A stretch of 40,113 nucleotides of DNA from NCBI GenBank assembly GCA_023269565.1, contig JAHFTD010000014.1:1-40113 (forward strand), given 5' to 3'. The DNA comes from Opitutaceae bacterium (GTDB lineage: Bacteria; Verrucomicrobiota; Verrucomicrobiia; Opitutales; Opitutaceae). The notes below the pieces were generated by a model. The model made no database searches, had not been told where the DNA came from, and saw only the letters and a list, made by a program, of their open reading frames with translations. Of this stretch, positions 12,283 to 18,430 are shown piece after piece; the first letter of the stretch is position 1, and each line of letters opens with the position of its first letter. Both the position numbers and the translations under genes were made by a program.

Positions 12283-15117
12283 ATGAACTACTCCGCAAGG
12301 AAGACCTTGGCGGCGCTTGCCTATGTTTCGGGCATGTTTGCCACAATCGCGGTATCGCCTGCATTAGCGCAGACGAATCCCGCTGCACCTATTGAAGAGA
12401 AGGCTGTAAGCATGGAGAAATATACTGTCACCGGCTCACTGCTCCCAGCGGTGGAGGGCGAGTCGTATATCCCCGTCACGACCTACTCCTCCGCGAAATT
12501 GCTGCTACTGGGCGCGGCCACCCCGATCGAGGGGTTGCGCAGCCTGCCCTCATTCTTCGGGGCGACCAGCACCGAGCTTGACAGCAACGGCGGCAGCGGT
12601 GCCGCCACGGTCAACTTGCGCGGTTTGGGTGGCACACTGACACTCATCAACGGTCGCCGCTCCTTCGGCTTCGCTGATCTTAACCTGATCCCGATCGATG
12701 CCGTCCAGAACATCGACATCCTGAAGGATGGTGCCGGCGCGGTCTATGGTGCCGATGCCTTGGCTGGTGTTGTGAACGTAGTCCTGAAGAAGAAGTGGGT
12801 CGGCACGCAGGTGCGCCTGGGTTACGGTATCTCCAGCGAGGGCGATTCCCAGCAGTGGGATGCCTCAGTGGCTATCGGCCGTGCCTTTGACAAAGGCTAC
12901 CTGACGGTGGTGGCCGGATATTCCGACAAGGACACCCTTTACGCCCGCGAACGCGCACTCTCCGCCAATGCTGATGGCCGGATCTTTGGCGGCCAGAACG
13001 GCGGCAGCCCGACCTTCCCCGGTCACATCGGCGGCGCAGCCTCCGGCCTGTTGCTGAAAAGCTCATTACAGTTTGGGCAGACTCCGGCTGATTATTTGCC
13101 GTTCAATCCCAGCACGGAATCATTCAATTTCCGCCTGTTCTCGCCATCCATCCCCGGCCAGACCCGCAAATTGGCGCACCTCGCGGGCGGCTATGAAATC
13201 TTTGACCGCCGGATGGAGGCCTATGTGGAGTTCGATTATGCCGATTCCCTTACCGCTAATGGTCTGGCTCCGGCGCCGTTCGCCCTCCCCTCCGCCACCG
13301 CCCGGAACAGCCGGTATAATCCTTGGGGTGCAGGTGTTACCATCCCCGGCGCTACGGTTCGTTATCGTGGCGTTGACCTGGACATCCGGCGCAACTCCTT
13401 CGACAAACAGGACTACCGCTACGTAATTGGCCTGCAGGGCAAGTTCGACAATGGCTGGGGCTACGATACCGGCTTCATGCAGTCGCATGAGAGCCTGTTG
13501 CAGACCGAAGCGAACGGCATTCTGCGCTCGAAGATCGTCGCTGCGACCGATAATGGCAGCTTCAACCCGTTTGCGCGTGCAGGCACGACTGGAACCTTCC
13601 GCGGTTTCTCTTGGGACAATCATACCTCCCTCGGGGGGGCCTTGACCGCTGGGCACAAGCCCTCCACTGGTGTCTTGGACGCCTTCGATTTCAAGCTGTT
13701 CGGCCCGGCGATGAAGCTGCCGGCCGGCCAAGTCCAGCTCGCCATCGGTTATCAACATCTCGCGAGGCATGACACCTTCAATCCGGAGAACATTTACTTC
13801 GCCGGCGATCTGCTGGGCTATAACTCCGGCAATCCGTTCGACGCGAGCGGTAAGAATGACGCGTTCTACGGCGAGGTGGATGTTCCGATCATCTCCGCGT
13901 CCGACAGCATCACCGGAGTCTCGTCGCTCAGCCTCAATGGCAATGTGCGCGAGGACAATGCCAAGGTGAAAGACAACATCACTGGCGACGCGGGATCTTT
14001 CGGCTCGTTCACCAAGCGCATTGGCCTGCGCTATCAGCCGACGAGCGAGCTCGTGCTCCGGGCCAGCTATGGCACCGGTTTCCGGGTGCCCGACTTGGGC
14101 AGCCTCTATGCCGCCCCGGGCGATAACTTCCCGACCCTGACCGACCCGCTCCGCTTCCCCATCGGCCAGCAGACGGACGTGCTCACGCAGGGCAATCCCA
14201 ACTTGGGACCCGAATCCAGCGTGAACAAGGCGCTCGGCATGATCTATTCACCGAAATGGGCGCCGGGCTTTAATGTCACCATCGACTATTACAAGACCAC
14301 GCTGGGCGGCCTGATCACCGACGGCGCGCAGTTCATTCTTAACCAGAATGCCGCCACCCAGGGTGCGGGATTCCCCATCATCACCAGAAACAGCGCCGGT
14401 GTGATCACCTCGGTCGTGACCGATCCCAACGCGCTGTATGCGGCCCGCATCCACCGCCACCCGGTCACCGGCGAGATTGACGACCAGTCAGGCCCGGCGA
14501 TTGACTCGACCAACCTCAATGTGGCGGTCCGCGCGGCCGAAGGCCTCGACTATACGTTTTCCTACCGCCAGCCGAAAGGCAGCTGGGGCCAATTCACGCA
14601 CACGCTTGAATTCAACCAGGTGCTGAGCTGGAGTTTGATTCCTGAGGCGGGCTCACCGGTGCAAGAATGGAAGGGCAGGTTCGTTGATCCGGCTTCCAAT
14701 GCGATTGCCCCCGGCTCGATTCCCGCGTGGAAGGGTTATTACAATCTGCTGTGGGAAAGTGGTAACTGGACCGCGAGTGCCACGATGAACTATACCCACT
14801 CGGTTTTGGATGATCCGGACACGCAGTTTCTCGACGCGGCCGGCGACTTTGCCTACTTGGATCCCGCGACCAACACGGTCAAGAAACAGAATGGGATCCC
14901 CACGATGGAGCGCTACATTACATTCGATCTCACCGTGTCCTATAAGTTCACCGACTCCAACAAGTGGATGAAGGGCACCGAGGTGCGGTTGGGTGTCCAA
15001 AATATCGGCAATGAACCGCCGCCGTTTTCGGCCGGTGCGTTCAACGACAACTACGACACCTCCATGTATAGCACGCGTGGCCGCTTCTATCAGTTTGGCG
15101 TCACGCAGAAGTTCTAA
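12283..15117 (+). CDS. TonB-dependent receptor (1 of 3 in tandem)
   Basis: Signal peptide, MEKYTVTGSLLP plug start, GAATVNLRGLGGTLTLINGRRSFG, VQNIDILKDGAGAVYGADALAGVVNVVLKK, C-terminal RGRFYQFGVTQKF. Confidence 0.95.
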   Translation: MNYSARKTLAALAYVSGMFATIAVSPALAQTNPAAPIEEKAVSMEKYTVTGSLLPAVEGESYIPVTTYSSAKLLLLGAATPIEGLRSLPSFFGATSTELDSNGGSGAATVNLRGLGGTLTLINGRRSFGFADLNLIPIDAVQNIDILKDGAGAVYGADALAGVVNVVLKKKWVGTQVRLGYGISSEGDSQQWDASVAIGRAFDKGYLTVVAGYSDKDTLYARERALSANADGRIFGGQNGGSPTFPGHIGGAASGLLLKSSLQFGQTPADYLPFNPSTESFNFRLFSPSIPGQTRKLAHLAGGYEIFDRRMEAYVEFDYADSLTANGLAPAPFALPSATARNSRYNPWGAGVTIPGATVRYRGVDLDIRRNSFDKQDYRYVIGLQGKFDNGWGYDTGFMQSHESLLQTEANGILRSKIVAATDNGSFNPFARAGTTGTFRGFSWDNHTSLGGALTAGHKPSTGVLDAFDFKLFGPAMKLPAGQVQLAIGYQHLARHDTFNPENIYFAGDLLGYNSGNPFDASGKNDAFYGEVDVPIISASDSITGVSSLSLNGNVREDNAKVKDNITGDAGSFGSFTKRIGLRYQPTSELVLRASYGTGFRVPDLGSLYAAPGDNFPTLTDPLRFPIGQQTDVLTQGNPNLGPESSVNKALGMIYSPKWAPGFNVTIDYYKTTLGGLITDGAQFILNQNAATQGAGFPIITRNSAGVITSVVTDPNALYAARIHRHPVTGEIDDQSGPAIDSTNLNVAVRAAEGLDYTFSYRQPKGSWGQFTHTLEFNQVLSWSLIPEAGSPVQEWKGRFVDPASNAIAPGSIPAWKGYYNLLWESGNWTASATMNYTHSVLDDPDTQFLDAAGDFAYLDPATNTVKKQNGIPTMERYITFDLTVSYKFTDSNKWMKGTEVRLGVQNIGNEPPPFSAGAFNDNYDTSMYSTRGRFYQFGVTQKF

Positions 15118-15143
15118 GCCCGCTGCAAAACGGCATTTTTCGA

Positions 15144-15173
15144 CCCCGGAGGGCTTCTGCCCCCGGGGTTTTT
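15144..15173 (+). terminator. Rho-independent terminator
   Basis: CCCCGG...CCGGGG stem followed by TTTTT, 26 nt after the first TonB receptor stop. Confidence 0.75.
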
Positions 15174-15210
15174 CTTTCCCGGGGCGCGACTGAGCCTGTC
15201 CCTGGGTTTG

Positions 15211-15358
15211 TTTATACCAACGTCCCTTTTGTTTTGGACTTTGCGGTGCCTGAGCCGGTAGGGGCGGTTGCCCTCAACCGCCCTCGGTGAGGCTAGGGCC
15301 GTTGAAGGGCAACGGCCCCTACCTGAAGCGGCTATTCTTCAAGGGACGTTGGTATTTA
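15211..15358. repeat. MITE/REP-like element: 14-15 bp terminal inverted repeats, possible 4-bp flanking duplication, two internal hairpins
   Basis: ATACCAACGTCCCTT at 15214-15228 is the exact reverse complement of AAGGGACGTTGGTAT at 15341-15355. TTTA flanks both sides (15211-15214 and 15355-15358). Internal arms GTAGGGGCGGTTGCCCTCAACCGCCCT (15258-15284) and AGGGCCGTTGAAGGGCAACGGCCCCTAC (15295-15322) are each self-complementary and near-complementary to each other. Confidence 0.75.
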
Positions 15359-15484: not shown

Positions 15485-18430
15485 ATGAACCAGAGCTCCG
15501 TAAGGAACTTTAGGACGTGGCTAGCGCTCGGCGCCAGCCTGTCCGCCATCGCGGCTACCAGCGCCTTCGCGCAAACCGCCCCCGCCCCCGGTGACAGCAC
15601 CGTGAAGCTGGAGAAATACATCGTGACCGGCTCAAACATCCCGCGCACCGAGACGGCGGGCGAGGCCCAGACCTTCCCCGTCCAAATCATTGACCGGCGC
15701 GCCATCGAGGCCAGCGGTATGTTCAATACCTCCCAACTGCTGCAGACGATGGTGTTGTCCAACGGCGGCAGCGTCACCTTCTCCAATAACGCCACCGGGT
15801 TCACCCCGGGCGCCACCTCCACCTCGCTCCGCGGCCTCGGGCCCGAGGCGACCCTCGTCCTCATCAACGGCCGGCGCGTGGCGCCGTTCCCCGTGGGCCA
15901 GGGCGGACAGACCGCGTTCGTCGACCTCAATTCCATTCCGCTCAATGCCATCGAGCGCATCGAAGTGCTGAAGGACGGCGCCTCCGCCACCTACGGTGCC
16001 GACGCCATCGCCGGTGTGGTGAACATCATCCTCCGCCGCGATTTCAACGGCGCCGTTGGCACCATCTCCTACGGCAACACCACCAACCGCGACTCGAGCG
16101 AGTTCACCGCCAGCGTCCTTTACGGGGTGACCTCCGACAAGGGCAGCATCACCGTCGGGGCGAACTTCCAGAGCCGCAACCCGATCTTCAACCGCGACCG
16201 CAGCTATTCCGCGGTGCCGCCGTTCCTCTCGAGCAATTCCTCGCCGCCGAACTTCCAAATTTCGCGCGCCGCGGCGGTTGCGGCGATTTTTGGTCCCAGC
16301 GCGCCGCTCAACTCCGTCCTCACGGTCAACGGGGTGCCCAACACCACCACGCAGACCCTCATCGCCAGCACCTTTCCGGTGCGCGATACCAACACCAACG
16401 GCACTCTGCCGGCCAGCGCCTACACCTTCCGCACGGGAACGGTTTCCCGGTTCAACTTCAACGAGTTCTCGGGTTCATTCCCGGAATACCGCCGCAAGGG
16501 CATGTTTGCCGCCTGGGAACGCCAGTTCTTCGGCCCGAATGCCAAGACCTACGGCGATTTGATGTATCAGGACTTCTCCCAGGAAGATCAGCTCGCCCCG
16601 CTGGCGACAGGCTTCTTCCGGGCGCCCGGTTCAGTCACGCTGGTTGTTCCCGCCCGCACGGCCAATCCCATCCTGACTCCGTTTGAGCAGTCCCAGGGTC
16701 GCCGCACGGCCCCGGTCGGCGCCTTCAATCAGTTCAATCCCTTCAATCAGGACCTTTCGGACACGACGCGCATGCGTCTGGCCGACTGGGGCAACCGCAC
16801 CATTGTGGATTTAAACAAGGCGTTCGCGGCCACCGGCGGCATCAAGTTCGACAATCTGGGCGACAGCAACTACTCGCTCGATCTGAAGGCCCGCTACAGC
16901 CAGATCAACAATGTGACCAACCACCGGCTGATCTCCACCTCGCGTTTAAACCGCGTCTTCAATGGGAACGACTCGATCTTCAATCCCGCCAGTTCGGACT
17001 ATATCGGCACCACGCTGCCCTATAATCCCTTCGGGTATTTCCGCAATCCGATCGCGTCCAACGCACTCCCGGTGAACTACGCTTTGCAGTTTCAGCGCGA
17101 CTACAACACCTCCACCATGATGGATTTTGGCGCCCTGGTTAATACTGCGGCGCTGATGCAAACCAGCGGTGGCGACGTGGGTTTCGCCATGGGTTTTGAT
17201 CTCCGCCGCGAGGCCATCGATCAGCTGCCCGACTCGGCGCTGCAATCCGGTGACATCGCCGGTTCAGTGCCGGCTTCGCCGATTCAGCGCTCGCGCCGGA
17301 TCGCCTCCTATTTTGCCGAGGCGGAAATCCCCTTCAGCAAAATGTTGTCGATGAATGTTTCCGCCCGTTACGAGGATTTCATCACCAGCAAGAAAAACAC
17401 CTTCGTGCCCAAGATCGGCTTCAAGTGGATGCCGAACGAGACCCTCGTTTTCCGCGGCAGCTGGGGCAAGGGCTTCCGCGAGGCGTCGCTGTATGAGCTC
17501 TACGCCGGTGCGGTCGCCTCGCTCAATCCCGTCTCCATTGATGTCGCGAAATGGCCGGGCAACAATTCGGTGGAGCCCGAGATGACCGGCATTGCCGTGG
17601 GCAACGCCGCTCTCGCCCCCGAAAAGAGCACCTCGCTCAACGTCGGTGTCGTCTGGACTCCCAAGGGCGGGCAGCTCGACGGCTTCACCCTGGCGGTGGA
17701 TGTCTGGAACATTAAACGCGAGAACACGGTGTCCCTGGACTTTCAGGACACGCTCAATCGTTGGAACGGCTTGGCGCACACCGGCAACACCAGCCTGCCG
17801 GGTGAACGGGTCGACGTGGATTTTGGCGGCACGATCGTCCAGATCGTCGCTCCCTACAAGAATCAGGGCAGCTCGAACATCAAAGGCGTTGACCTGACGA
17901 CCAGCTATACTTGGAAGACCAATGAGATGGGCCGCTTCCAGCTCGGAGCCGCGTTCACCTACATCGACTCCTACAAGCTCGCCCTCAGCCCCGGCACGGG
18001 CCCCGTGGAGTTCATTGGCAAAGCCGTCACCGGCACCGCCTCGGATGACGCTTACCTCCAGTGGAAGGGCCAGGCTTTCCTCAACTGGACTTGGAAAGGT
18101 GTCTCGACACAGCTCACCGCCAATTACACCGACGGGTTCCAGGACATTGACGGCAATGACGACCCGGATGGCGACGGCATCGGCGAGCCCCGCCATACCG
18201 ACTCAAGGATGATCTATGACATGCAGATTAACTACACGCTCTATCCCTCCAGCGGCAGCGGCACAGCCAACTGGTTCTCCGACATCAAGCTGACCGGTGG
18301 CGTCCGCAATCTGCTCGACAAGGATCCGCCGTTTGCCTCCGGCAATGCCGGCAACTCGAACGGCTATCCCGGCTTCCTCTACACTGACGAAGGTCGCTTC
18401 TGGTATGTCGGCATCGAGAAGAAACTGTAA
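15485..18430 (+). CDS. TonB-dependent receptor (2 of 3 in tandem)
   Basis: MNQSSVRNFRTWLALGASLSAIAATSAFAQ signal peptide, KLEKYIVTGSNIPRTET plug, TSLRGLGPEATLVLINGRRVAPFP, IERIEVLKDGASATYGADAIAGVVNIILRRDF. ATG at 15485 is preferred over the track start at 15287, which lies inside the repeat element. Confidence 0.95.
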   Translation: MNQSSVRNFRTWLALGASLSAIAATSAFAQTAPAPGDSTVKLEKYIVTGSNIPRTETAGEAQTFPVQIIDRRAIEASGMFNTSQLLQTMVLSNGGSVTFSNNATGFTPGATSTSLRGLGPEATLVLINGRRVAPFPVGQGGQTAFVDLNSIPLNAIERIEVLKDGASATYGADAIAGVVNIILRRDFNGAVGTISYGNTTNRDSSEFTASVLYGVTSDKGSITVGANFQSRNPIFNRDRSYSAVPPFLSSNSSPPNFQISRAAAVAAIFGPSAPLNSVLTVNGVPNTTTQTLIASTFPVRDTNTNGTLPASAYTFRTGTVSRFNFNEFSGSFPEYRRKGMFAAWERQFFGPNAKTYGDLMYQDFSQEDQLAPLATGFFRAPGSVTLVVPARTANPILTPFEQSQGRRTAPVGAFNQFNPFNQDLSDTTRMRLADWGNRTIVDLNKAFAATGGIKFDNLGDSNYSLDLKARYSQINNVTNHRLISTSRLNRVFNGNDSIFNPASSDYIGTTLPYNPFGYFRNPIASNALPVNYALQFQRDYNTSTMMDFGALVNTAALMQTSGGDVGFAMGFDLRREAIDQLPDSALQSGDIAGSVPASPIQRSRRIASYFAEAEIPFSKMLSMNVSARYEDFITSKKNTFVPKIGFKWMPNETLVFRGSWGKGFREASLYELYAGAVASLNPVSIDVAKWPGNNSVEPEMTGIAVGNAALAPEKSTSLNVGVVWTPKGGQLDGFTLAVDVWNIKRENTVSLDFQDTLNRWNGLAHTGNTSLPGERVDVDFGGTIVQIVAPYKNQGSSNIKGVDLTTSYTWKTNEMGRFQLGAAFTYIDSYKLALSPGTGPVEFIGKAVTGTASDDAYLQWKGQAFLNWTWKGVSTQLTANYTDGFQDIDGNDDPDGDGIGEPRHTDSRMIYDMQINYTLYPSSGSGTANWFSDIKLTGGVRNLLDKDPPFASGNAGNSNGYPGFLYTDEGRFWYVGIEKKL

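Follow-up and report, generated by a model that had tools for sequence, protein, structure and literature searches.

The window, by which we mean the whole 40,113-nucleotide stretch of Opitutaceae DNA analysed here, contains a 140-bp non-coding element (15215-15354) whose outer shell is very probably a MITE belonging to an IS630-family element that duplicates 3 bp (TNA) of its target. The shell encloses a head-to-head pair of REP hairpins (REPIN). This assignment rests on ends that the shell has in common with IS copies and on 3-bp duplications seen at empty sites. The element is intergenic, between two TonB-dependent receptor genes, and the locus comprises the following features:

12283-15117, forward strand: upstream TonB-dependent receptor (PF00593 and PF07715)
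15143-15175, forward strand: terminator-like stem-loop with T tail, 3' of the upstream gene and outside the element (seen in the sequence; folds well)
15211-15214, no strand: left flank TTTA, target duplication (family expectation TTA)
15215-15242, forward strand: left terminal inverted repeat TACCAACGTCCCTTTTGTTTTGGACTTT, made of an outer TACCAACGTC block and an inner TTTGGACTT block (profile 43.8 bits)
15243-15256, no strand: left arm spacer GCGGTGCCTGAGCC, common to the shell on contig C26 (from the alignment)
15257-15283, forward strand: REP unit 1, GGTAG tag and hairpin GGGCGGTTG-CCCT-CAACCGCCC (hairpin 15262-15283)
15284-15295, no strand: spacer separating the REP units (seen in the sequence)
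15296-15323, reverse strand: REP unit 2, inverted, hairpin GGGCCGTTG-AAGGG-CAACGGCCC (hairpin 15296-15318) and CTACC tag, completing the head-to-head dimer (REPIN)
15327-15354, reverse strand: right terminal inverted repeat, TACCAACGTCCCTTGAAGAATAGCCGCT as read on that strand, identical to the left end over the outer 14 bp only
15355-15358, no strand: right flank TTTA (seen in the sequence)
15485-18430, forward strand: downstream TonB-dependent receptor (PF00593 and PF07715)

The sequence TACCAACGTCCCTT at 15215-15228 (forward strand) has its exact inverse, AAGGGACGTTGGTA, at 15341-15354, giving perfect 14-bp ends. Allowing up to two mismatches, a search of the window for TACCAACGTCCCTT returned both element ends and no third match, with 0.07 expected by chance, so that coincidence does not account for the perfect ends. 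Beyond these outer 14 bp the two ends diverge: the right end scores 19.2 bits against the end profile, with a weak inner block, versus 43.8 bits on the left. The element is far more stably folded than its shuffled counterparts (z = -7.6). No gene is assigned to its interior, into which the downstream gene's open frame extends back mechanically. Short, non-coding and bounded by perfect terminal inverted repeats, the element has the general make-up of a MITE. The first-pass annotation of this DNA had described 15-bp inverted ends 142 bp apart end to end, which agree with our coordinates once the outer A/T is counted, flanked on both sides by TTTA, which is indeed found at 15211-15214 and 15355-15358. 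It had also placed the element between two TonB receptor genes and downstream of a terminator; both neighbours carry the expected domains, and the stem-loop at 15143-15175 is visible, although a consensus scan did not report it. Its central reading, a non-autonomous element with MITE-like ends holding a pair of REP hairpins, holds.

The genome from which the window derives (2.5 Mb in 153 contigs, 84% complete) contains a second shell at C26:18891-19080, flanked by TGA on both sides. Both arms, the first REP unit and the start of the spacer are common to the two shells, and the C26 copy has an extra REP segment; the count of two comes from similarity searches, not from a full profile scan. Of 252 family genomes, 25 have the end pattern, a reversed control pattern giving close to zero matches, and a phylum-wide sample of 388 genomes showed the end pattern only in the window's own family. 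An exact-end scan of genome contigs returned only three contigs, all from one Opitutae MAG, and nothing similar to the element was found in the plasmid records searched. In total, 59 short elements of 88-275 bp were delimited in the family. Their 28-bp ends consist of the conserved TACCAACGTC and a T-T/A-G/A-GACTT block about 18 bp inward, a two-block arrangement that would correspond to a cleavage tip followed by a putative transposase binding site, as is usual for such ends. Copies in the same genome often resemble each other (106 bp long in G043; 111 and 125 bp in G180), and 18 unrelated clusters of cores can be told apart, several cores having no GTAG tag. Copies with the same ends and variable flanks, which the first-pass annotation had proposed to look for, are thus found at unrelated sites, both in this genome and in the family. 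The shell moves as a unit of its own, distinct from the REP core.

Some shells lie close to each other or to other repeats. At L083 (G031:C6, 1127-1255 and 1501-1629) a near-identical pair of 129-bp shells stands 245 bp apart, each adjoining a copy of another dispersed repeat (GGTGGAGCGGGTTG...), with the second shell inside its repeat copy. Two shells with different cores were inserted 44 bp apart at L084 (G283:C5, 1501-1785). The shells of L044 and L047 adjoin a different dispersed repeat, AACGCAAAGACGC...GCGTCTTTGCG, so unrelated intergenic repeats are clustered in these genomes. Just 5' of the shell at L048 (G085:C99, about 1380-1500), near a terminator-like stem, there is a short inverted repeat (AAAATACCAGTTGAGCCTAGCTCCTGGTATTTTACGCCCGG...).

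The likely mobiliser of the shell is an IS630-family DDE transposase. At contig ends of genome G225, a shell end is followed by an open frame containing the DDE_3 motif LPPYSPELNPVERF, and a family-wide protein search found the transposase in 46 genomes. Twelve IS copies were delimited in related genomes. Full-length copies are about 1141 bp (~1.14 kb) long and consist of a transposase frame of 352-371 aa with shell ends on both sides, as carried by L136, L137, L140, L143, L145, L151, L154, L156 and L158, so that the ends of the shell are those of a transposase-coding, autonomous element. Matching flanking triplets are TGA/TGA at L136 and L151, TAA/TAA at L137, L143 and L158, TCA/TCA at L145 and TTA/TTA at L154. 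The transposase passes the NCBIfam model transpos_IS630 (NF033545) with 157.7 bits at a cut-off of 100, carries the Pfam domains DDE_3 and HTH_33 (winged-helix), and has a DDE triad of D182, D262 and E295 with 32 residues separating the last two. Its known-plasmid relatives are all less than 60% identical, the best listed being 28-36%. It is present in 11 of the 25 shell-bearing genomes versus 35 of 227 others (p = 0.0015, relatedness ignored).

Searches of the window's own genome (84% complete) found no IS630-type transposase: the enzyme may have been lost or be encoded in the missing 16%, or the genome may never have had it. In G017, which has 20 end matches, what is left of the transposase is a shortened frame with a single recognisable end. 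At L136, a second, short end pair sits directly beside the IS with one TGA between them. The 75 bp before the IS at L140 (G191:C12) match many genomes and stop matching exactly at the junction; this left flank resembles the terminal part of a different transposase gene that runs up to the IS. Either a RAYT or a DDE transposase with matching ends had been suggested as the mover at first pass: the DDE half of that suggestion stands for the shell, the related genomes supplying an IS630-family enzyme, and the RAYT half does not; no RAYT was found in the window's genome (84% complete).

The flanks and empty sites define the target duplication. Among 71 elements (the 59 short ones and the 12 IS copies), 48 have identical 3-bp flanks, nearly all TNA, versus 16.7 by permutation (maximum 32 in 10,000 permutations); TNA stands on both sides in 62, and all four middle bases occur. 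To look at sites without the element, flanks were joined and searched in family genomes, and the filled and empty DNA were then compared; a minority of the G180 sites was searched in this way, the last IS sites were not among the queries, and the two neighbouring insertions of L084 were queried as one. All 11 filled-versus-empty comparisons, representing six independent insertions, overlap by exactly 3 bp, which establishes the duplication at the level of the family. Empty counterparts exist for L086 (from G289) in G061 and G285, for L068 (G177) in G053, for L131 (G283) in G289, G061 and G018, for both elements of L084 in G289 and another G283 copy, and for L044 in a repeat copy within its own genome. 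The empty triplet differs by at least one base in 4 of the 11 comparisons, as expected for diverged sequences.

These empty sites, which the first-pass annotation had named as a sign of mobility, do not bear out its 4-bp TTTA duplication as typical, since the family rule is a 3-bp TNA. The window copy itself reads TTTA/TTTA as 4 bp and TTA/TTT as 3 bp; given the family rule, the simplest reading is that its TTTA is probably a TTA duplication with one extra T on the right. No close relative showing the empty site of the window insertion was found among the genomes searched, so mobility of this particular insertion rests on the C26 copy and on the family. We rejected both a 4-bp duplication as the family rule and a TA duplication with ends starting CCAACG, because the flanking triplets are direct repeats and the empty sites show 3 bp. 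A 2-bp TA target duplication is the norm for the IS630 family. Our elements depart from it with the 3-bp TNA at empty sites, and we file them as IS630 with a variant target duplication because the transposase is IS630. No earlier description of a TNA duplication in bacterial IS630 was found in the literature searched, with ISfinder outside it.

In the mechanism that we propose, the MITE would be a pair of transposon ends without the gene, moved in trans by the IS630-family DDE transposase. The enzyme would target TNA and duplicate those three bases, would recognise the bipartite end (TACCAACGTC and the T-T/A-G/A-GACTT block about 18 bp inward), and would excise the composite and paste it elsewhere. 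With the composite cut and pasted by the IS630 transposase, the REP doublet would be a passenger, having presumably joined the shell after, or during, shell formation. An inserted copy might affect transcripts by forming a strong hairpin.

The core (15257-15323) reads GGTAG-GGGCGGTTGCCCTCAACCGCCC-spacer-GGGCCGTTGAAGGGCAACGGCCC-CTACC and so consists of two GTAG-tagged REP hairpins placed head to head. With the element as query, its own genome returned 36 matches; outside the window and C26 nearly all comprise the REP part only (query 50-128), with flanks that have no shell, and about 20 further genomic places carry the REP core without the outer ends. The REP doublet is an independently dispersed repeat in this genome and, with its tags, hairpins, head-to-head units and dispersed copies, a REPIN. 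Its stems form the sub-families CG/CG, GC/GC and GG/CC. The variable stem positions are complementary in 24 of 25 hairpins at the loci of this genome, versus 10.2 expected under independence (maximum 18 in 2000 shuffles), which bears out the compensatory G-C/C-G swaps first noticed between the two hairpins of the window.

REP doublets of different families recur inside the same shell, as seen from 10 of the 18 core clusters that start with GTAG or GTGG and end with the inverse, with the tags pointing outward, versus 0.86 in shuffles (maximum 4). With strict GTAG at both core ends, 7 clusters remain versus 0.07 in shuffles (maximum 1). The REP family of the window occurs in shells of two genera (the window and L035), where it is joined to the arms at different positions, which suggests at least two independent nestings of the same family. 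Possible routes of entry are RAYT targeting the hairpin tip, capture at MITE formation and recombination between REPs. Elsewhere the core is a dispersed repeat of another kind, GTCATTGCGAGG... and CCGCGGATTACACGG... being examples; the repeat GTCATTGCGAGG...CCTCGCAATGAC is the shell core in several genera (L048, L063, L068, L083, L084, L090 and L123). In the G017 loci L043, L056, L087 and L098-L105 the arms are constant and the core is variable, giving elements of 99-243 bp, and some of these cores have shrunk to a few bases of REP stem.

One tentative reading of this recurrence is that REP doublets repeatedly insert at the shell hairpin tip, the shell serving as a landing site in a stable relationship and not through chance capture. 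The paired outward tags in independent core clusters and the differing positions of one REP family relative to the arms argue for it, as do the REP dimers nested in long palindromes of Anabaena variabilis and Halothiobacillus neapolitanus described in PMC3733652. However, no clean before-and-after pair of shells was identified for a REP insertion, and the core-length variation in G017 is explicable by deletion alone; we consider this reading possible but somewhat unlikely. It is doubtful, in turn, that the combination of IS630-type MITE shells with REPINs is a recurrent mobile system of two layers, in which doublets enter or exchange at the shell tip and the IS630 transposase carries them. If they did, REPINs would gain a RAYT-independent means of spread, which would explain their occurrence in a genome where no RAYT was found.

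For the element as a whole, an alternative to the IS630 MITE is that it is purely a REP/BIME element, mobilised by a RAYT tyrosine transposase, with the outer repeat as no more than an extended palindrome around the REPs. Such an origin would suit the GTAG-tagged head-to-head core, GTAG REPs being abundant in Opitutus terrae according to PMC3733652. RAYT-type Y1_Tnp genes are also present in 11 of 13 family genomes tested, but none was found in the window's genome (84% complete), and the window's REP (GGTAGGGGC) flanks none of 20 RAYT loci in relatives. Moreover, the outer ends of the shell are found around 18 unrelated cores, of which several have no GTAG tag, and around IS630 transposase genes, and they make 3-bp duplications. 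The IS200/RAYT mechanism produces no 3-bp target duplications. We consider this origin very improbable and reject RAYT as the mover of the shell. Scarcely credible is a conserved structural RNA or bidirectional terminator kept at the locus for its fold, which would be consistent with the strong fold, the covarying stems and the intergenic position after a gene, but which is disfavoured given the empty sites, has no Rfam match in the window, and is at odds with cores that differ wholly between genomes and with copies at unrelated sites, some of them (L086, L131) interrupting interspecies-conserved sequence that is intact elsewhere.

Reading the shell as an IS630-family MITE offers a concrete transposase for nested palindromes that had been noticed and left unexplained; in the accessible part of PMC3733652, REP dimers nested in palindromes are already known, with no transposase assigned. 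Added here are the transposon family of the shell, the length of its duplication as determined from empty sites, and its recurrence with interchangeable cores in a bacterial family. The family also represents a branch of bacterial IS630 elements that duplicate 3-bp TNA, and it offers a possible route by which REP doublets may spread without a transposase of their own.

Among known systems, the shell resembles RUP of Streptococcus pneumoniae, a non-coding element of about 107 bp with ends matching IS630-Spn1 and a proposed mobilisation in trans (PMC2229807, PMC3049150); RUP targets TA, whereas the window family has the 3-bp TNA and a core of independently dispersed REP doublets. The Correia/NEMIS elements of Neisseria are likewise small (about 107-155 bp), with inverted ends beginning TA, a strong hairpin transcript and size variants through differing internal sequence (PMC2229807), but their end sequence is unrelated and their interior does not consist of interchangeable REP doublets. 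The core shares with GTAG REPs and REPINs the tag, the hairpin, the head-to-head dimer, the alternative complementary stems and the occurrence in Opitutus (PMC3116915 and PMC3733652, in the latter of which stem sub-families of the same kind and head-to-head dimers were reported earlier). It differs in that the window doublet lies inside a DDE-transposon shell and that no RAYT linked to its REP family was found. REPs nested in longer palindromes are also described for Anabaena variabilis, T. roseum and Halothiobacillus neapolitanus; their outer palindrome has no assigned transposase in the accessible text of PMC3733652, while the window shell is tied to an IS630-family IS, a duplication and empty sites. 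Finally, the IS630-Tc1-mariner group, which duplicates TA (PMC8533490), has other members with non-TA duplications, namely Sailor with TATA (PMC8533490) and the eukaryotic Fot of the pogo superfamily with TAA (PMC7386202). Their transposases are distant from ours, and in the window family the triplet is TNA with all four bases in the middle.
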